This document shows positions 5,867 to 47,531 of a stretch of DNA of 47,531 bases, piece by piece (the stretch's first letter is position 1; every line of letters starts with the position of its first letter). The stretch covers positions 1 through 47,531 of the IMG/VR virus record IMGVR_UViG_3300010430_000079, one strand, 5' to 3'. A model generated the notes under the pieces. The model had not been told where the DNA came from. It did no database searches and worked only from the letters and a program-made list of their open reading frames with translations. The position numbers were made by a program, and so were the translations under genes. The DNA is from a virus.

Positions 5867-5894
5867 GACCCTAAGGAAAATTTTACTTAGGGTT
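5867..5894. repeat. 28-bp near-palindrome, intergenic copy
   Basis: The left arm is GACCCTAAGGAAAA and the right arm TTTTACTTAGGGTT, nearly self-complementary around AAAATTTT. Closely related copies are at 23350-23377 and 39731-39758. This copy begins 2 bp after the stop of the 115-aa gene. It could be a protein-binding site or an RNA hairpin. Confidence 0.75.
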
Positions 5895-5895
5895 A

Positions 5896-6243
5896 TCACG
5901 CCACCACAACGAGCTCTATCTCAAGAATAGGCTTCTGTGGTGTAGAAGCGTCCGTCTTCAGGAATATCGCTATTGTGTATGTTCCTGCGTCTGTTGCTTC
6001 CACATCTATCAGTACTGACTCATACGCTGCAACAGTCCTGCCGTTGATCACTTCCTCTGTTGTTGAGACAGTCGTTGCATTTATTGTCAAACCTGAGGCT
6101 GTTGTTGCTGCTGGGTATGCTGGTGGACCTGCGTCAGTAACCAGTTTTTCTCCTTCATTAAGCAGGTTGCTGCAATCTACGAACAGCGTACGATCTGACG
6201 TATAGCTTCCCCTGGTTGCAATGATCGTGTAAGAATCAGCCAT
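5896..6243 (-). CDS. Putative virion protein with a beta-sandwich-like fold
   Basis: A 115-aa Thr/Val/Ala-rich protein with alternating hydrophobic residues (VAAYESVLIDVEATDAGTYTIAIFL), typical of immunoglobulin-like beta modules on phage tails. The DAGTYTI motif in particular is Ig-like. It overlaps the preceding 46-aa gene by 8 bp and is the last gene of the fibre group. The exact role is unknown. Confidence 0.6.
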   Translation of the reverse strand: MADSYTIIATRGSYTSDRTLFVDCSNLLNEGEKLVTDAGPPAYPAATTASGLTINATTVSTTEEVINGRTVAAYESVLIDVEATDAGTYTIAIFLKTDASTPQKPILEIELVVVA

Positions 6244-20814: not shown

Positions 20815-22347
20815 TTACCTTCCGATCAGATCGGTTGGTGGTACATCCTTAACTTTCCGTTTCCAGTCGAAGTCATCCTTCGGCATGTATGGCATATCCT
20901 TTGGCGGCCAATATCCGTGCTCGCGTTTGAATAATCCTTGAGCCTGACTGAATGTCATGTTGCTCTTCTTCATCCGGTAATACATGCTCGTCCAGAGCTT
21001 CTCTGTGTTGGTCCGGTTCTCCCGGTGTTTCTTCCGCAGGATCTTGCCGGTCTGCTCTTTGAGGTCGCCGTTCTCTTGTACGACCATCCGCACAGACTTT
21101 GCGTGCTGGTGGCCACATGAGACACACTGAGGGCCTTTCATGCGGACTGCACCGCACGCCGGACATACGATTGGTTCGGGCTCCTTGCCCTCTGCCATGC
21201 GTTCCAGGCGTGTGTTAGAGATAACCGTGTCGCTGAGTTTCCATTCCTGCTGCCAGAATCGGTCCATGTTCGGTGAACCATGCCGCCAGAAATTGCCGCC
21301 GTGGTCCTGTATGATTACGTGGTCGTATCCTAGGTAATATCGAAGCACGCGCCCGACCGTCTGTAAATAGCTCAGAAGTGACCCAATCGGCGTAGCCAGA
21401 ATGCAGTGGTACAACTCTGGAATGTCGATCCCTTCCCGCAAAACGAAACGATTGCAGATTACGTCAATGCGTCCCGCTCGCAGATCCTTGACAACCTGCT
21501 GCCGCTTGTCCGGTGATGATGGGTATTCCTCGCCATCCTGATACACGTTGTTACCGTCGATGTGTGCGGCCCTGATTCCTGCTTCCTCAAGTTGATCGAC
21601 GAACCACATGGATTCTTTAACACCTGGTGCGAACAGTATCGTCGGCTTTCGATCCGGGTTAAGCCGGTTGTAATAATCCACCACTCGCCCGATGATGGTC
21701 TGTGTCCATACCTTGTAGGTCTGCTCGCCAATCTGGAACTCGCCTGTTTTGTTTCGTTTTACCTTCCGCAGGTCCGGTTCATCAGGTGCGTATACCTTGC
21801 AGGGCAGGTGTGCGCCGCACTTCCGAAGTTCGCTATTCACGCCCGCAATAATCAGCTTGTCGTACAGGTGTGATATTCCTAAAGGTGTCGCAGTCAGACC
21901 GATGTTGACCGCTCCCGCGTCTCCATGATGTTTGAATATCTTCTCGGCGGTCGCTGCCTTCTGCATGTGGGCTTCATCCCACAGCACCAGCTTGGCATGA
22001 TGCAGGTTACGTGTCTTCCTCTGAAAAACTCTTGAACGCTCTGTCGGCACGCTGGCAATCTGAATCTTGGCGTCCAGGTTCTCATGCTCCCACATCTCCG
22101 AAGCCCTGACGCCGTACTCGATTCCGTAATCGTCCATTGACTTCATCAACTGTTCAATCAGCATGTTACGGGTCGCGTACAGCACAACAGGCCAGTCGTG
22201 CCGCTGGGCATAGTCGATCATTTCAAACATACACCGCGACTTCCCGCCGCCTGTCGGACTGGTGAAGCACAACCGCTTCTCGCCCGATTCAATCGCGCGG
22301 AACGTCGCTTTCAGTCCTCGCTGCTGGTGTGGCCAGAGGGCGCTCAT
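20815..22347 (-). CDS. SF2 DNA helicase with C-terminal zinc ribbon
   Basis: A 510-aa helicase of the UvrB/SSL2-type SF2 group; ATG 22347 overlaps the previous stop. Motifs: Q-like LWPHQQRGLKA, Walker A SPTGGGKS (30-37), DEAH (123-126), motif III GLTATPL, motif IV ILFAPG, motif VI QTVGRVLR. A zinc ribbon (CPACG...CVSCGH) follows at about residue 395. It probably drives recombination-dependent replication together with exonuclease, annealing protein and SSB. Confidence 0.92.
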   Translation of the reverse strand: MSALWPHQQRGLKATFRAIESGEKRLCFTSPTGGGKSRCMFEMIDYAQRHDWPVVLYATRNMLIEQLMKSMDDYGIEYGVRASEMWEHENLDAKIQIASVPTERSRVFQRKTRNLHHAKLVLWDEAHMQKAATAEKIFKHHGDAGAVNIGLTATPLGISHLYDKLIIAGVNSELRKCGAHLPCKVYAPDEPDLRKVKRNKTGEFQIGEQTYKVWTQTIIGRVVDYYNRLNPDRKPTILFAPGVKESMWFVDQLEEAGIRAAHIDGNNVYQDGEEYPSSPDKRQQVVKDLRAGRIDVICNRFVLREGIDIPELYHCILATPIGSLLSYLQTVGRVLRYYLGYDHVIIQDHGGNFWRHGSPNMDRFWQQEWKLSDTVISNTRLERMAEGKEPEPIVCPACGAVRMKGPQCVSCGHQHAKSVRMVVQENGDLKEQTGKILRKKHRENRTNTEKLWTSMYYRMKKSNMTFSQAQGLFKREHGYWPPKDMPYMPKDDFDWKRKVKDVPPTDLIGR

Positions 22348-22988
22348 TCGCTGGCCCTCCATTCGTCGTATTTGGCAGATAGTTGCTTGAGTAGAGACAT
22401 GCACTCATCGCGATATCCTGTTCCCCCCCTCTTGTCGTGAAGCCTGTCTAATGCCCTTGCAAGCCCTCCAATCTGGACAGACAATGAGTTCTCAGTTCTC
22501 TTTTTATCGCTATACCGATATTCATCAGGAAGCCTCTTTGCAACACGACCAACCGACGCTGTTAATAGATCTGCTCTAATTTGATAAGCTTTTTCATGCT
22601 CTCCTCGATCAACCAGATCATCTATAGCATAAATAATCTTAACTCCATCAGCAGCAGTCTGGCGATGTATTCCTGCCCCTCTTAAAGCATTTTCCCTGGC
22701 TGAGAATTTACCATCTCCGTCACAAACAACACCATGTAGCATGTCTCTAAGTTTAATATATTTTCTGATCCTTGATTCTGTCGTATCATATCCTTCAGCT
22801 ATTGCCTCTCTCACTAATCTGCATAGTATTTCATCATACTCGTTTCTTGCATCTTCTATTGTTTTAAAGCTCCTGTTGTGATTCTTACCTGTGGACAGTT
22901 CTCTCCACATTACTCTATAAGTGTTCCTTTTCTTTGCGTATGAAATACAGATACTCACCTTGACTGGTTTTTTTTGGCTATTGCCCAT
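22344..22988 (-). CDS. ParB-related protein with an AP2/Arm-like N-terminus
   Basis: A 214-aa protein. Residues 10-60 (VSICISYAKKRNTYRVMWRE, NRSFKTIEDARNEYDEIL) resemble the AP2/Arm-type DNA-binding domain of phage integrases. Residues 96-153 align with residues 139-198 of the adjacent ParB-like protein (e.g. IDDLVDRGEHEKAYQIRADL against IDELEEAGAVEEAAELRETL). The C-terminus (ALDRLHDKRGG...CMSLLKQL...EWRA) matches the ParB-like C-terminus as well. It thus looks like a paralogue with a swapped N-terminal domain. Its codons are visibly more AT-rich than the neighbours. A partition or replication-regulator role is inferred. Confidence 0.65.
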   Translation of the reverse strand: MGNSQKKPVKVSICISYAKKRNTYRVMWRELSTGKNHNRSFKTIEDARNEYDEILCRLVREAIAEGYDTTESRIRKYIKLRDMLHGVVCDGDGKFSARENALRGAGIHRQTAADGVKIIYAIDDLVDRGEHEKAYQIRADLLTASVGRVAKRLPDEYRYSDKKRTENSLSVQIGGLARALDRLHDKRGGTGYRDECMSLLKQLSAKYDEWRASE

Positions 22989-23755
22989 TATTTCGCCCTC
23001 CAAGCCTTCAGAGCCTTATCAAACGCCTTGAGATGTTTCAGGCACTCTCCCTGCTCAGCACGTCCGTTCTTGGCCTCATAGCGTGCGTCAACGGCTCTCA
23101 CGAGTTTGCCGAACAGATCGTCAATGGTCTTCTCGTTGAACGGTTTCGGCTTCGGTTTCTCCGGTGCAATCTTGCGAGCAGCACCGCTTACGGACTTGTT
23201 GAGAGTCTCCCGCAGTTCGGCGGCTTCCTCGACCGCTCCGGCTTCCTCCAGTTCGTCGATCTTCTCAACCACTTTGGAAGCCTTCTCTGCGGTACTGCCA
23301 GACATACCAACTTCCTTGGCTGCGATGTCACGAGATTGGCCCTTCTTCTGACCCTCAGGTAAATTTACCTTAGGGTCGGTTTTCCCTGTTTTCATGCGTT
23401 TTTCGGCCTGCTCCGACTCAATTTCCTTCAGCCGCTGGTACTCCCGCGCCTTCAGTTCGGTTGTCTTCTCCCGCTGCTTGTTGGACAGAATCAGAGTCTT
23501 CTCAATCTCAAGCGGGTCGGTCAGATCCTGACGGATGATTACCGGCACTTCCTTGAGTCCGAGCATCTTTGCACACTGGTTGCGACGGTGCCCGGAGATA
23601 ATTGTATTGTCCGGTGTGACAACGATTGGTTCCAGTACGCCGTTCTCATCGATCAGTTTTTTCAGCTCCGGGTCTGGCTTGTCTCCGTACAGCTTGATAT
23701 TGAGCATGTGGTTCTTCAGGTTCTTCGGATCGACTTTGTTGAATATCGCTTTCAT
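22988..23755 (-). CDS. ParB-like protein
   Basis: A 255-aa protein with a ParB/Srx N-terminal domain: VDPKNLKNH, ENGVLEPIVV, and the ISGHRRNQCAKMLGLKEV box (GHRR at 55-58, the CTP-binding motif of ParB). The HTH follows (SRDIAAKEVGMSGSTAEKAS), then a helical dimerisation region with a C-terminal AWRAK. No ParA is present, so classical partition is unlikely without a host partner. Such phage proteins may act as nucleases, regulators or replication factors. The gene contains one copy of the 28-bp palindrome, encoding DPKVNLPEGQK. Confidence 0.85.
   Translation of the reverse strand: MKAIFNKVDPKNLKNHMLNIKLYGDKPDPELKKLIDENGVLEPIVVTPDNTIISGHRRNQCAKMLGLKEVPVIIRQDLTDPLEIEKTLILSNKQREKTTELKAREYQRLKEIESEQAEKRMKTGKTDPKVNLPEGQKKGQSRDIAAKEVGMSGSTAEKASKVVEKIDELEEAGAVEEAAELRETLNKSVSGAARKIAPEKPKPKPFNEKTIDDLFGKLVRAVDARYEAKNGRAEQGECLKHLKAFDKALKAWRAK
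23350..23377. repeat. 28-bp near-palindrome inside the ParB-like gene
   Basis: GACCCTCAGGTAAA followed by TTTACCTTAGGGTC: self-complementary at all but one base pair. It encodes TDPKVNLPEGQ in the gene. The flanks (CTTCT before, GGTTTT after, plus strand) are also shared with the copy at 39731. Confidence 0.8.
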
Positions 23756-24279
23756 TTGCTCGCTTCCTTAATTGCATCTTCGATTGCTTTTACTGCGTCT
23801 TTATTTGGCACCCACCAGAACACCTCTTTATCCTTAGTGCCCTTGTCGTAGTATTCGCCTCGATTTGAATCGACTCTGTAACCGCTTAGGATCTCCGCTT
23901 TCATTGGTGGCAGAAGGTAAAGTGATCGACCGATTCCCCATTGCACTGCCGCTCGCTTCATCGAGTCGGACAGACCGCCTTTCAGCTTTTCAATGTTTGT
24001 GTCTGGTGCACCATCCCATTTTGTCACAGGGCCGTTCTGAGAGGTGTTGATTGTGATCCCGCAGAGCTGACCGCCTTTCCAGTCGCAGAATTCATTCCAC
24101 CAGTTCCATGGCAGGCACACTTCATCTAGTCTGTCCTGTATCGCACGGGCAGTAACATATGGCGTAATCATCGCATCGATGTCACCGTTGTTCTTTTTTC
24201 TGACCCTTAGCGTTCTCCAGTCGAGATCTTCGATTCCAAACGGTCTAGCAAGGTCCTCTGGTTTAAAAGTAACTCCCAT
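23752..24279 (-). CDS. Rad52/Rad22-family ssDNA-annealing protein
   Basis: A 175-aa protein from ATG 24279. It matches the Rad52_Rad22 fold: PYVTARAIQDRLDEVCLPWN, WKGGQLCGITI, and the signature LKGGLSDSMKRAAVQWGIG followed by RSLY. It anneals complementary single strands made by the adjacent exonuclease, forming a Red-like recombination pair. The stop/start overlaps on both sides show translation coupling. Confidence 0.88.
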   Translation of the reverse strand: MGVTFKPEDLARPFGIEDLDWRTLRVRKKNNGDIDAMITPYVTARAIQDRLDEVCLPWNWWNEFCDWKGGQLCGITINTSQNGPVTKWDGAPDTNIEKLKGGLSDSMKRAAVQWGIGRSLYLLPPMKAEILSGYRVDSNRGEYYDKGTKDKEVFWWVPNKDAVKAIEDAIKEASK

Positions 24280-25109
24280 CAAATCGCCTCCGCTAATGCG
24301 TCGTTATCGGCCAGCCACTTCATGGACGGCACGTAGGTTTGTATCTGTTCTGCCAGCGGTTCAGTCCATTCGCCAGATTCCCGACATTTGGCAATGTCTT
24401 TCAGAGCTTGTCGGACGTCCCTGCGTGCTACCGCAATCACGTCCTCGTGAAGTTCATGAACCACACACCGGAATGGTGGCTTGTTCTCAACGGCAATGAA
24501 CTGGTAAGGAATGTCCCTGTCGGTCTCTAGGTATGATTGAACCGCTAACTCATAGTGAGCCTGCGAGTAATGCCAGCCGCGCTCATTAGTTGCCTGATAG
24601 AAGAACTTCTCTGGTGTTGGGTCTTTCGTTGTCTTCAGGTCAACAACTGCGTCTGACTCCAGCCACATATCAAGGCGGGCCTTGCATTCAACTCCTGCAT
24701 ATTCGAACAGCAACGCCCGCTCAACCTGCACAGTCTCACCCAGAAGGCGGACCGCATCATTGTTTGAAAAGAACGATTCACGCATCAATGTCAGGTCATC
24801 GAGTTCGTCTTCAGATATCAGCTCTAAACCAGCTTCGGCACACTCACGCTTGTAATCCTGGTATTCGCCATTCCGCTTGTTTCCGACGTACGGTTCTGCC
24901 CATGTCTTCCGGTCTTCGAGAATCCATGCGTGTAGTAGCCGACCAATTCGCATTGCGTCGGTATCGTTCGCCTCACGGAACAACCCAAGTTCGTACTTCT
25001 GCCAGTACGCACGCGCTCCGTACTTGAGGTAATACTTGAGCGCCGTGGACCGAATCCCCGGAAGCTTGTTGTACTCCTCTTCGCTCATTTGTTGGTCTGG
25101 TAAATTCAT
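24279..25109 (-). CDS. PD-(D/E)XK exonuclease, RecE/DUF3799 type
   Basis: A 276-aa nuclease with MRIGRLLHAWILE (residues 53-65), the catalytic CKARLDMW...VVDLKTTKD block (Asp147, Asp157, Lys159) and the QAHYELAVQSY helix (Gln183). This is the RecE-type/DUF3799 exonuclease that resects double strands to give 3-prime tails. It is paired with the Rad52-type annealing gene directly downstream. Confidence 0.88.
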   Translation of the reverse strand: MNLPDQQMSEEEYNKLPGIRSTALKYYLKYGARAYWQKYELGLFREANDTDAMRIGRLLHAWILEDRKTWAEPYVGNKRNGEYQDYKRECAEAGLELISEDELDDLTLMRESFFSNNDAVRLLGETVQVERALLFEYAGVECKARLDMWLESDAVVDLKTTKDPTPEKFFYQATNERGWHYSQAHYELAVQSYLETDRDIPYQFIAVENKPPFRCVVHELHEDVIAVARRDVRQALKDIAKCRESGEWTEPLAEQIQTYVPSMKWLADNDALAEAI

Positions 25110-29174: not shown

Positions 29175-29636
29175 TTATGCTTCTGTTTTCTCTGCCTCTT
29201 CCGACTTCTGTTTAGACTTGGCATTTGACTTCAATTTATCGCAGATCGTTTTCAGGATCGGCTTCCAAAACTGCCACTGTTCGATGCAATTATCTGCGCG
29301 ACTCATTGAATGAATCGCGTCATCGTCGAACGTGAACCACTCTTCGTGCGTGTAGTTCTTGCATCCAATCTGCATCGTTTCGGAGTTAATGTAGACTTGA
29401 TACTCGTCCGCTTTGAGGTGAACCAGATTGGCAGACCGCAGATCGGCATACCGCAGATTGGCAGACCGCAGGTCGGCATACCGCAGATTGGCAGACCGCA
29501 GATTGGCATTTGAAAAATCAATCACCGTCAAATCAGTTTCACTAAAATCTGCCCGTTCCCCACCGTCTTCACTGTTCCGCCATTTCTGATGCAGTTCGAC
29601 GGCTTTGTTGAATTCATCCTGTGTGATCTTTTTCAT
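29175..29636 (-). CDS. Pentapeptide-repeat protein
   Basis: A 153-aa protein from ATG 29636. Residues about 24-60 hold seven or eight pentapeptide units of the A(N/D)LRx type (FSNANLRSANLRYADLRSAN), a short right-handed beta helix. At DNA level the unit is an almost exact 30-bp tandem repeat. Pentapeptide proteins can mimic DNA (gyrase protection) but the short repeat here does not prove that. A Lys/Glu tail ends the protein. Confidence 0.8.
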   Translation of the reverse strand: MKKITQDEFNKAVELHQKWRNSEDGGERADFSETDLTVIDFSNANLRSANLRYADLRSANLRYADLRSANLVHLKADEYQVYINSETMQIGCKNYTHEEWFTFDDDAIHSMSRADNCIEQWQFWKPILKTICDKLKSNAKSKQKSEEAEKTEA

Positions 29637-29685
29637 AGTTCTCCCCATTGTGTTTAGTTGGACTGGCGACGGGCGGCGGGTACGG

Positions 29686-29985: not shown

Positions 29986-30008
29986 CGCGGTTCAGAACAG
30001 CGCGCAAC

Positions 30009-30024
30009 GTGGCAAATTTGCCAC
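30009..30024. promoter_or_regulatory. 16-bp perfect palindrome, candidate operator
   Basis: GTGGCAAATTTGCCAC is fully self-complementary. It lies about 24 bp upstream of the -35 element of the early promoter and 6 bp from the direct repeats. A dimeric HTH repressor or activator site is likely. Confidence 0.65.
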
Positions 30025-30030
30025 ATTGAA

Positions 30031-30085
30031 AATAACGAGGAATGACCCGACAATAACGAGGAATGACCCCACAATAACGAGGAAT
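30031..30085. repeat. Three 21-bp direct repeats (iteron-like)
   Basis: AATAACGAGGAAT recurs at 30031, 30052 and 30073, exactly 21 bp apart, with the spacer GACCCSAC. Two helical turns per unit suits cooperative protein binding, such as integrase arm sites, excisionase sites or replication iterons. Confidence 0.75.
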
Positions 30086-30093
30086 AAAACTTT

Positions 30094-30392: not shown

Positions 30393-31493
30393 CTACGAGC
30401 CGAATAATTCGTCTATTTTGGCTGCAACCTGCGATCGTCTTGGCGGGAGTGCATGAGCATAGACCTCAAGCGTCATGGATGTTGATGAATGCCCAAGTAG
30501 CTGCGATACAACCAGCAAATCAGCACCAGCAGCCAGCAGCTCAGAAGCGAACGTATGACGCAGGTGATGCAGCCCACGAACATCTACGCCCGCTTTCCTG
30601 AGTATCGGGTTCCATATTCGCGGACCGTGCTTATCTGAGTTGATGCGACCACCACGCACTCCACAGAATATGAACTCGTTATCCTGATGGCCTTTGCTCT
30701 TGAGCTTTGCGCGCTGATCTTCCATGATCTTCTCAATGCCTGGAGTCAGGTCAAGAATGCGGTTGCTTCCCTTGGTCTTCAGCTTGCTGATTTCGCCGTT
30801 AATGTACTGTTTGTTGACGCTGATTGTCTTTGTCTGGTAGTCAATGTCGGACCACTCCAGCCCAAAGACCTCTGAGGATCTCATCCCAGTCGAAAGAATG
30901 AACTTGTACATCGGCAGGTGAAACGAGTCTTTTGCCTGTTCGAATATCGCCGCACGTTCATCCCTGGAGAACGGTATCACTTCCCGCTTTTTGTGTGGTG
31001 GCTTGGATACCGGATCGCATGGATTCCGCATGATGATCTCATCAGATACAGCCCTCCCCAGTGCCGTTTTAAGGACCACGTAAGCTAACTGGACCTGACG
31101 GCTACCTACACCGCTTTCACGCAACGAGGTGAGCATTGTACGTATCTTGGAGGGTTTCAGCTTGTTGAGCTTCAACTTGCCGATCTGGGGGATTATGTGC
31201 GGTCTGATTACGTTGTTGTAACATTTGAACGTTTTGCGTGCATGGTCGCCGTTTTCGATGTCCCGCAGGTATTCCGTGAGGTAGGATTCAACCGTGTGGT
31301 GCTGCTCGTCCATGTCGAGTTGTTGCGCCTCCCTGCGCAACTCATCGAGCTTGGCTACTGCATCGGCTTTCTTGTCACACGTCCGCTTCGGTCGCTTGAG
31401 CTTGCCATTCTTCCAGTAGCTTATCTGGGCAATCCATTTGCCGTTGTTCTGGTAGATCGTCCCCTCTCCGTTGGAACGTCTACGCTTTGGCAT
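30393..31493 (-). CDS. int: Tyrosine-recombinase integrase
   Basis: A 366-aa integrase. The N-terminus has an AP2/Arm-like domain (GTIYQNNGKWIAQISYWKNG), followed by a SAM-like core-binding domain. The catalytic domain shows Arg205 (STGMRSSE), Lys near KTKGSN, His309 and Arg312 (HHLRHTFASE), His335 (LLGHSS) and nucleophile Tyr345 (LEVYAHA). It is complete and shows lysogenic capacity. Confidence 0.96.
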   Translation of the reverse strand: MPKRRRSNGEGTIYQNNGKWIAQISYWKNGKLKRPKRTCDKKADAVAKLDELRREAQQLDMDEQHHTVESYLTEYLRDIENGDHARKTFKCYNNVIRPHIIPQIGKLKLNKLKPSKIRTMLTSLRESGVGSRQVQLAYVVLKTALGRAVSDEIIMRNPCDPVSKPPHKKREVIPFSRDERAAIFEQAKDSFHLPMYKFILSTGMRSSEVFGLEWSDIDYQTKTISVNKQYINGEISKLKTKGSNRILDLTPGIEKIMEDQRAKLKSKGHQDNEFIFCGVRGGRINSDKHGPRIWNPILRKAGVDVRGLHHLRHTFASELLAAGADLLVVSQLLGHSSTSMTLEVYAHALPPRRSQVAAKIDELFGS

Positions 31494-39058: not shown

Positions 39059-39714
39059 TACGCGCTCGCCTCTGTGAATGTAAATGTAGCAGTGCCGCTG
39101 GTTGCTGTGACCGTAAAGCGTGTGCCGTCCGATTGCAGTGGTACGTCTGGCGGGTACGACAGCACATCTACCGTCAGGGCCTTGGCTGTCCCCAGGTTCC
39201 CGCTCGATGAACTGCCGTTGGGCGGCTTGTCGTCACGCCCGGTCACTTCCAGTTTCCATGTGCCTGAGCCTCTGAATGTATCGTCCTTGGGAACAATCAT
39301 CGTGTAAGTGCGGTTGGTGTCGAAGAGCTCACGATAGATCAGGTTTCCGTCGTCCACGTCGCCGCCTGCGGTCGTTCCGGCAGTCACGTCGATGTATTTG
39401 GCGTCCGTCCAGCCTGAGATTGTGGCGCTGATCTTAGCGCGGTTGTAGGGCCTGTCTGGTAGCAGGCTACCGAAGTCGCTGCCAGCCTGATCCGCGTCAA
39501 CCGCTAACAGCGTGATGTGTTCAGGCCAGTCGGTTGGCTGCATTGTCCCGACAACCAGACGGTCGTTATATCCTGCCGTTTCGCCCACAAGCTGACGGCC
39601 ACAGTACAACTGATGGATTTTGTCCGAGTACGTTGAGCTGAACCACACACCAAGGGAGTGAGTATCCAGCCACGCATACGACGTGATTTCAAATCCACCC
39701 AGGTACGTACCCAC
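39058..39714 (-). CDS. Tail-tip beta protein
   Basis: A 218-aa protein with domain-like segments (GFEITSYAWLDTHSLGVWFS; RTYTMIVPKDDTFRGSGTWK). The C-terminus (GTRFTVTATSGTATFTFTEA) is a beta module. It fits the row of baseplate or tip proteins between tape measure and hub. Confidence 0.55.
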   Translation of the reverse strand: MGTYLGGFEITSYAWLDTHSLGVWFSSTYSDKIHQLYCGRQLVGETAGYNDRLVVGTMQPTDWPEHITLLAVDADQAGSDFGSLLPDRPYNRAKISATISGWTDAKYIDVTAGTTAGGDVDDGNLIYRELFDTNRTYTMIVPKDDTFRGSGTWKLEVTGRDDKPPNGSSSSGNLGTAKALTVDVLSYPPDVPLQSDGTRFTVTATSGTATFTFTEASA

Positions 39715-39926
39715 TATTTAGCGTCCTTCTGACCCTCAGGTAAATTTTCCTTAGGGTCGGTTTTAGCGTGTTCTACCAGTGATTCGGCTGCTTTGTAGCA
39801 GTCTGCGAACTCATCGACGGTCATCAGACTGGAGTCGAATTCCACCTTGTCAGATTTCTTTTTCTGCTCGACGAGCTTCTGGACCGTTTCTTTCTGTAGC
39901 TTGGCTTTCACTGGGCCTGTCTCCAC
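39714..39926 (-). CDS. Small helical protein ending in the palindrome-encoded peptide
   Basis: A 70-aa charged helical protein (KETVQKLVEQKKKSDKVEFD, DEFADCYKAAESLVEHA). Its last residues TDPKENLPEGQKDAK are encoded by a copy of the 28-bp palindrome and match the linker of the ParB-like protein. The gene overlaps the previous one by 19 bp. Probable small tail accessory. Confidence 0.6.
   Translation of the reverse strand: METGPVKAKLQKETVQKLVEQKKKSDKVEFDSSLMTVDEFADCYKAAESLVEHAKTDPKENLPEGQKDAK
39731..39758. repeat. 28-bp near-palindrome inside a tail gene
   Basis: GACCCTCAGGTAAA followed by TTTTCCTTAGGGTC, one base different from the copy at 23350-23377 and read in the same frame there. It lies at the very end of the 70-aa gene. 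Confidence 0.8.
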
Positions 39927-45916: not shown

Positions 45917-47531
45917 TTAGCTGTTACCCTGATAAAGTCCTCGGTAGTCAATAGCCTTGATTCCGTACGTCTGGCGGATCTTGGCCTTGATCGTGTCGGT
46001 TTCGAATCCGTTTTCACGCTCTACCACCGGGGTCCGTTCACCTTGCAGGAAGCTGATCTCCACGGTATCAACCATGTTGTTGTCAGCAGCCAACCACCAG
46101 ATGGTTGTGGAGCCTGACAGTGCGTCGATCTGACCGTCTGAAATCACCTCCAGCGATCCATACAGTGGAACGTTCGTGGTCGTCGCCGGGACAACGCCAC
46201 CGTTGACCAGTCGCATTGCGGTCGGTCGCAGTGCAGCAGGAACGATCAGGTAACGCGGAGTCAGTCCCAACACGGTCGTTGAGTCAGTACCGGACTGCGT
46301 TGCCATGACGGTATGCCCGGTATCGAGTGTGCCTTCTGCCAGTGCTCCAGAGTCCAGGTTTGCGCCGTGGCTGGAAGCGTGGAACAGTGCAACACCGTCT
46401 GCAAGGGCGTTGTTGTCAATCAGGATGCTGTAGGCGTCCCGGTTGATCTTGCGCCGCATTGCGTTACCCATCATCTGCACCCGTCGGCTCATTGCGTCAA
46501 GGTCGTCATTGACCAGCATCTCCAGCGTGATCGAGAAGATTCCACCATGCTTAGCGACCTTGTAGGACTCTTTCGCGTCAGTGGTGGTCATTTCCTGGTA
46601 CTTGCCGTTTTCTGCAACTTCACTCGGCATCCCCATTTCCCCGAACACGATTTTATTCATGTCCCGGAAGTCGGTAGCATCAGACGCAGTACGCACCCAC
46701 TGCTGGTATGTTGATGGTGCTTCGTCGTATGCCTTCCGGAGCGTCTTGTGCATCGAGTTCAGGAAGATATTGGAGAAACTTCCCGTGGTATGGTAAGCCG
46801 GTCCAGAACGTTCAACGAACGACTCGTGAGAGATCGCACGTTTGACAATTTCCTGAGTAGGTTTTCCAGTAACGTCGATGCCGGCCCGTTCACAGTACTC
46901 GCGGGCGAGGTCTGGGATACGACGATACATCAAATCGCTAGAACCTGCGGGGGCCTCTCCGATCTGCTGCTTCAGTTCGTCGGATACAGGAGCATCACCG
47001 ATAGACCGCTTGACCATTGCGTACTCGAACGCATCATAGAACTTGTCACGCTCAGACGCACCGCGTTCGATGTTCTGACCTGGTCCGACTGGAACGCCTG
47101 TCGGTTGATAGTTCCTTTTCAGGATCTCGCCTGCGACCTGGTCGGCTGTTTTGTCGCTGTCCAGAAACTCCTGGCGTGCCTTTTCGTCAACATTGTGGCT
47201 GCGGCACAGTTCGTCAACAGCGTTCCAGCGTTCCTTAAATGCTCGCTGGATCTCTTCCAGATCCTCTTTGCTGGCCTGCTTTACTGGCTCAGGCTGCTTT
47301 GCAATGGAATCTTTCAGGCTTCGCACCACATCCAGTGCAACCTTCGGATCAAGACCGGGCTCTTCTTTTTCAAGCTGCCGTTCCAGGAATTCCAGGGTTT
47401 CTTTGTCGTTCGCTTCTGCGTCAAGGCCACGCTCAACCAGAAGTTTTCTGAGCTCTTCGTTCATCACTTCTTTCCTTACTTCTTCGGGTTCTGCGAGTGC
47501 TCGCATAGCAAACACGGCCTTCGCATTCTTA
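45917..47531 (-). CDS. Linker and major capsid part of the protease/capsid fusion (continues at position 80)
   Basis: The C-terminal part of the 703-aa fusion. Directly after the protease comes a charged helical linker (NEELRKLLVERGLDAEANDK to EPGLDPKVALDVVRSLKDS), comparable to the HK97 delta or scaffold domain. From about residue 330 the HK97-fold major capsid protein follows: FSNIFLNSMHKTLRKAYDEA, the GGIFSITLEMLVNDDLDAM segment, FHASSHGANL and a C-terminal TIKAKIRQTYGIKAIDYRGL. Proteolysis by the attached protease presumably frees the capsid during maturation. Confidence 0.9.
   Translation of the reverse strand, partial: KNAKAVFAMRALAEPEEVRKEVMNEELRKLLVERGLDAEANDKETLEFLERQLEKEEPGLDPKVALDVVRSLKDSIAKQPEPVKQASKEDLEEIQRAFKERWNAVDELCRSHNVDEKARQEFLDSDKTADQVAGEILKRNYQPTGVPVGPGQNIERGASERDKFYDAFEYAMVKRSIGDAPVSDELKQQIGEAPAGSSDLMYRRIPDLAREYCERAGIDVTGKPTQEIVKRAISHESFVERSGPAYHTTGSFSNIFLNSMHKTLRKAYDEAPSTYQQWVRTASDATDFRDMNKIVFGEMGMPSEVAENGKYQEMTTTDAKESYKVAKHGGIFSITLEMLVNDDLDAMSRRVQMMGNAMRRKINRDAYSILIDNNALADGVALFHASSHGANLDSGALAEGTLDTGHTVMATQSGTDSTTVLGLTPRYLIVPAALRPTAMRLVNGGVVPATTTNVPLYGSLEVISDGQIDALSGSTTIWWLAADNNMVDTVEISFLQGERTPVVERENGFETDTIKAKIRQTYGIKAIDYRGLYQGNS
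47453..47531. repeat. Terminal direct repeat, right copy
   Basis: Identical to positions 1-79, marking the assembly overlap of a circular contig. Confidence 0.95.

Follow-up and report, generated by a model that had tools for sequence, protein, structure and literature searches.

Many phage ParB-like genes appear, from the way in which site and protein vary together, to contain a palindrome that is recognised by their own product. In the window, by which the whole analysed stretch of 47,531 nucleotides is meant, a 28-bp near-perfect palindrome within the linker codons of a ParB-like gene is predicted to be a parS-like site to which the ParB-like protein itself binds, a reading to which we assign a probability of about 0.9. 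What chiefly argues for it is that the spelling of the site tracks the HTH of the same gene, so that the protein named as the obvious binder in the original prediction is now the candidate best supported by the data. To our knowledge, no target is known for most phage 'ParB-like' proteins; the present finding proposes such targets from sequence alone and accounts for an in-gene palindrome that would otherwise be odd.

The window phage and its palindromic sites

The window is a viral contig that carries identical 79-bp terminal repeats at 1-79 and 47453-47531, and represents a genome that is either circular or terminally redundant. Its genes include those for portal, terminase, head protease, helicase, exonuclease VIII, integrase, Erf and single-strand binding protein, and the integrase gene identifies it as the genome of a temperate phage. 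The coordinates of the main features are collected in Table 1.

Table 1. Features of the window around the ParB-like gene and its palindromic sites
Feature	Position	Strand	Basis or remark
ParB-like gene, 255 aa: ParB_N domain, disordered linker, HTH domain	22988..23755	-	Pfam, PHROG ParB-like, AlphaFold2, Foldseek
ParB_N domain, residues 30-89, motifs SGHRR and SNKQR	23489..23668	-	Pfam PF02195, E=3e-9
HTH, residues 139-160, GQSRDIAAKEVGMSGSTAEKAS	23276..23341	-	model helices 140-149 and 153-171; covariation
28-bp near-perfect palindrome in ParB-like gene (gene strand GACCCTAAGGTAAATTTACCTGAGGGTC)	23350..23377	.	13/14 pairs, window's best
Second palindrome, near 3' end of 70-aa gene, half-site spelling TAAGG as in ParB site	39731..39758	.	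12/14 pairs
Third palindrome, between genes, immediately past stop codon of gene 5896-6243(-)	5867..5894	.	12/14 pairs
39-bp segment in common with 39726-39764	23345..23383	.	one mismatch
70-aa gene	39714..39926	-	C-terminus KTDPKENLPEGQKDAK encoded by second palindrome and its shared flanks
DNA helicase, same module as ParB-like gene	20815..22404	-	PHROG_16, 2e-66
Erf-like single-strand annealing protein, directly upstream of ParB-like gene	23752..24282	-	PHROG_1097, 2e-44
Exonuclease VIII-like gene, module shared with ParB-like gene	24279..25109	-	
Integrase	30393..31493	-	

From a structural point of view, the AlphaFold2 model of the ParB-like protein consists of a confident ParB_N domain and a confident HTH with a disordered linker between them, and its Foldseek matches are ParB, Noc and KorB. 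The ParB_N (CTP-binding) domain of the family is thus present according to both Pfam and Foldseek, and the HTH that follows it, predicted to read the palindrome, is indicated by the model together with the residue-base covariation described below; the motif-like stretches SGHRR and NKQR, present in the sequence, may relate to CTP binding and clamp sliding. In the numbering of aligned HTH columns used here, H1 corresponds to Q140, H3 to R142, H16 to S154 and H20 to K158.

The palindrome of the ParB-like gene, which encodes linker residues 127-136 (DPKVNLPEGQ), forms with the second and third sites the top three 28-bp palindromes of the 47.5-kb window, at the positions originally predicted, and the next best has 11/14 pairs. 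No further place in the window lies within 10 mismatches of the 28-mer, and a reversed control pattern gave zero matches there. As had been described, the two in-gene copies differ by one base and encode DPKxNLPEGQK in the same frame. Both extra sites spell the half-site in the same way as the linker copy. The third site had correctly been called intergenic, its exact place being corrected here to 1-2 bases after the stop codon. The label of 'tail protein' given to the 70-aa gene, on the other hand, finds no support, as this gene has no Pfam or PHROG match; a search of the phage collection and of 151 genomes returned no homologue of it. The 39 bp of near-identity between the first two sites suggest that the second was copied from parB. 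The site in the ParB gene is to be seen as the family feature described in the next section and the other two as extras of the same spelling; near copies of the full palindrome were not found in the plasmids or isolated phages searched.

Linker palindromes across phage ParB-like genes

A search of 2.9 million viral contigs for exact matches to CCCTNAGGNAAATTTNCCTNAGGG returned four, three of them distinct, all of which lie in linkers of ParB-like proteins differing from that of the window. Similar linkers do recur in such proteins, as first proposed. A scan free in synonymous codons (those for PxENFPEG) recovered mostly palindromic DNA, in ParB linkers and a few other places. A looser-palindrome scan of genomes and viruses recovered many ParB linkers (Planctomycetota, Synergistaceae, Polaromonas and others), the remainder including ordinary terminator-like hairpins and chance coding matches. 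Since the window ParB, used as a direct query, found no relative in the viral contigs, homologues were then gathered by protein similarity alone via alignments of palindrome-bearing ParBs, which gave 127 ParB-like genes after dereplication. At least 12 of 14 pairs were present in 46 of the 127 linkers, whereas of 1056 windows of equal size taken from other parts of these genes one reached that level; in this comparison, the search seeds were genes found through the palindrome and retrieval used other conserved peptides.

The palindromic linker DNA sits just before the HTH and occurs in all three reading frames among the 127 genes. It mostly exceeds synonymous-codon shuffles of the same gene, and the peptides that it encodes are unrelated, such as LLPQNSAEVN (TTACTTCCGCAGAATTCTGCGGAAGTAA), ELVSNLTQAL, GLPPHVAEVP, DPERNSSQGV and AEGASRDAPS. 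Because peptide, reading frame, centre and palindrome sequence vary between ParB families, it is palindromicity and not the peptide that is kept, in line with the earlier suggestion of conservation at the DNA level; a palindrome recurs at the homologous linker in unrelated ParB-like genes, and the ParB-like gene is the home of the element, as had been suggested. In each of the 22 phage records that contain the site, no palindrome elsewhere in the genome surpasses it; it stands alone at the top in 21 and shares first place in one, and it almost always occurs only once. Cultured phages with a linker palindrome include Pseudomonas phiAH14a, Vibrio eugene 12A10, Staphylococcus EW and Mycobacterium phiGD22-1, which belonged to the statistical set and are not independent tests.

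A linker palindrome of at least 11/14 pairs is absent from about half of the dereplicated genes, and it may have decayed between close relatives, as in L168 compared with L166. In the 29 Spo0J/Noc-type genes examined, no linker palindrome rises above background, and the in-gene palindrome is also absent from plasmid relatives (pCAR1, Rts1 and others; L412, L408, L411). Thus, the protein fold does not require the palindrome.

Covariation between HTH residues and half-site bases

Similarity between half-sites is correlated with similarity between HTHs (r=0.21, p=0.001), and remains so once N-domain similarity is controlled for (partial r=0.30, permutation p=0.0005); for N-domain similarity itself, r=-0.05. 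Taken by column of the HTH alignment, the association is strongest at 0, 1, 3, 4 and 15, 16, 19. On the strength of this covariation it is proposed that a dimer would place one of its HTH domains on each half-site, where base 7 would be read by HTH residue 1, base 6 by residue 3, base 5 by residue 16 and base 3 by residue 20.

The clearest rule concerns H1, the residue before 'S/T-R-D', which predicts base 7 in 43 of 48 genes, Q going with A, K with T, D or E with C, and R with G. These rules have 6-11 origins each, and base 7 changes at least 40 times on the N-domain tree. Furthermore, R or K at H16 goes with G at base 5 (43/43), R at H3 with G at base 6 (39/42), and R at H20 with C at base 3 (21/23), this base otherwise being mostly A. 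The rules persist where the palindrome and the H1 codons are separate, and a difference at H1 between close homologues is matched by the expected one at base 7 in at least three separate clades. The Staphylococcus phages EW and 85 (L386, L387) each have two tandem ParB-like genes adjoining repressors, and their first ParB-like genes have T versus E at H1 and T versus C at base 7, as the code predicts. When each gene was left out in turn, base 7 was predicted correctly in 78% of cases, compared with 29% for the commonest base and with 31% when the next-best palindromes of the same genes were used. For the window protein, the rules call for A from Q140, G from R142 and A from K158, and the site has all three. 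L145 is an exception to the code, and a later gene, L403, fits it at bases 7 and 6 and misfits it at bases 5 and 3.

The pairings follow known amino acid-base chemistry, in which arginine goes with guanine, glutamine with adenine and aspartate or glutamate with cytosine. The DNA-reading columns match those of Caulobacter ParB (R/Q173, Q162, N178), whose residues 162, 173 and 178 contact parS and whose Q173 reads adenine (PMC7383237). In our own alignment, H3, H15 and H20 are placed opposite positions 162, 173 and 178, and are predicted to be their counterparts.

Secondary sites and alternative explanations

The extras of the window, together with a second copy in a related phage (G004, L060), show that secondary sites are real in some phages. 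In that phage the second copy is spelled in the phage's own way (TCGGG) and is found where a capsid-module gene ends; many short contigs carrying the same gene have it too.

Two further records deserve description in their own right. A provirus of Iningainema tapete (L011, L016, L051, L067 = L022, L044, L031, L033) contains several dispersed palindromes of the CCCTNNGGAAAATTTTCCNNAGGG type, one of which is translated in frame at the C-terminal end of an unrelated protein. In a Pirellulaceae MAG, several neighbouring palindromes of the same type lie around 4900 of L018, with PVENFPQ read repeatedly.

Rickettsia palindromic elements (RPEs) are one repeated sequence inserted in frame in many genes, where they encode tolerated loop peptides, and the phage sites resemble them as in-frame palindromic DNA that encodes peptides of this kind. 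A mobile element of the RPE or REP/SDR repeat type, inserting into tolerant loops that include ParB linkers, would explain the extra copies in the window phage, the 39-bp copy with its shared flanks and frame, and the dispersed copies in the Iningainema provirus, the Pirellulaceae MAG and L052. However, instead of one palindrome in many unrelated genes, the different ParB families have palindromes unrelated in sequence yet located at one fixed place, mostly single per genome and specific in spelling to the HTH of the same gene, which makes such an element improbable. Thus, of the original idea of a moved palindromic module, the Rickettsia-type mobility is unsupported as main explanation, whereas the copy in the 70-aa gene, in the same frame, does look copied from parB.

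Less probable still is a hairpin of mRNA or single-stranded DNA in the linker codons that would act in translation pausing or RNA regulation. Although any palindrome can fold and this one lies between two domains, the two central pairs, which would form the loop, are complementary as often as the arms, and the mispairs reveal no G-U bias (9 G-U versus 19 A-C). A hairpin, moreover, offers no reason for bases to track HTH residues, and plasmid relatives do without the palindrome.

Equally hard to sustain is the view that a host factor or repressor reads the site and that the covariation with the HTH reflects linkage of neighbouring DNA. It is true that the site adjoins the HTH codons and that H0, H1 and H4, the columns close to it, also score, as linkage would produce. 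Nevertheless, the peaks include the DNA-facing columns 15, 16 and 19/20, and the intervening structural columns 5-10, 12, 14, 17 and 18, which are nearer to the site, score low; the pairings match amino acid-base chemistry and arose repeatedly. L180, which is without a linker site, argues in the same direction, since a 12/13 palindrome 68 nt past its gene fits all four rules.

Finally, a coding coincidence, in which a conserved and recurrent linker peptide has codons that are palindromic by chance, as those of DPxxN(L/F)PEG intrinsically nearly are, is the least credible account, being refuted by the unrelated peptides in all frames, the excess over synonymous shuffles and the palindrome-free canonical Spo0J/Noc and plasmid relatives.

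Comparison with known systems

As a putative binding site of its own product, the linker palindrome can be set beside several described systems. ParB-parS, Noc-NBS and KorB-OB share with the phage family a ParB_N fold followed by a HTH and a palindromic site. In contrast to them, the phage genes are phage-borne, the predicted site has a constant place within the gene of the protein that would read it, in the linker, and the sites measure 24-28 bp and diverge widely between relatives, no ParA being found. The ParABS arrangement, with ParA next to ParB, is absent from the 39 window ORFs that were compared with PHROGs, which include the ParB neighbours and all but a few short ORFs. Bacillus subtilis also has a parS inside spo0J, that is, a ParB site inside a ParB-family gene; however, it belongs to a set of many parS sites that share one conserved spelling, whereas the spelling of the phage sites follows the HTH of each gene. 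A different precedent is lambda, in which the iterons lie in the middle of gene O, the four of them adjoining an AT-rich tract (PMC7466680). The likeness consists in a phage DNA-binding protein with sites in its own gene within a replication module, binding being predicted for the window; the difference lies in the unrelated protein fold and in the four iterons, as opposed to the usually single palindrome of phage ParB-like genes. In some phages a separate O-like initiator gene adjoins the ParB-like gene. The literature, outside subscription journals, yielded no description of the peptide core, the core DNA or in-gene phage ParB sites.

Proposed function and genomic context

Since the linker is under little structural constraint, the spelling of a site located there would be free to change with HTH specificity. 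Located within the reader's own gene, where its codons are least constrained, the site would also travel together with the protein when phages exchange modules, and the finding would then show that a DNA-binding protein and its site are able to evolve and move as one piece. More tentatively than binding itself, a ParB-type, probably CTP-dependent clamp may load at the linker site and act on the replication and recombination module, either by autoregulation or by helping replication. In several phages, the neighbours of ParB-like genes are replication genes (helicase and primase, O-like initiator, replisome organiser), which makes control or support of the replication module likelier than partition; chromosome-type partition is also less likely in view of the integrase and of the lack of ParA among the scanned ORFs. 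Taken as a whole, the picture of a diverse phage ParB-like family that records its own specificity in-gene, as protein-site pairs with a readable recognition code, and whose clamp loads at its own gene and controls the replication module, seems to us somewhat more probable than otherwise.

As site spelling keeps step with the DNA-reading residues, these genes would constitute a natural table of protein-DNA recognition pairs and, if the reading is true, a recognition code for the ParB-type HTH that can be read without experiments. With so many natural protein-site pairs, the way in which DNA-binding specificity evolves would become open to direct testing, and new orthogonal pairs of the ParB-parS type for DNA labelling may be gained.

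With regard to a lambda-type origin in the window, the skew profile does not turn at 23 kb, but nearly all genes lie on one strand. A fourth palindrome, CGCAACGTGGCAAATTTGCCACATTGAA, at 30003-30030 (11/14 pairs) is similar to ParB-linker sites that are spelled differently (GTGGCAAATTTGCCAC) and adjoins a tandem repeat at 30028-30090, in which the 21-bp unit GAAAATAACGAGGAATGACCC occurs three times upstream of or within a short ORF. Another tandem repeat, of 15 bp, is found at 29409-29523 inside gene 29175-29648, where it encodes a repeated five-residue unit.
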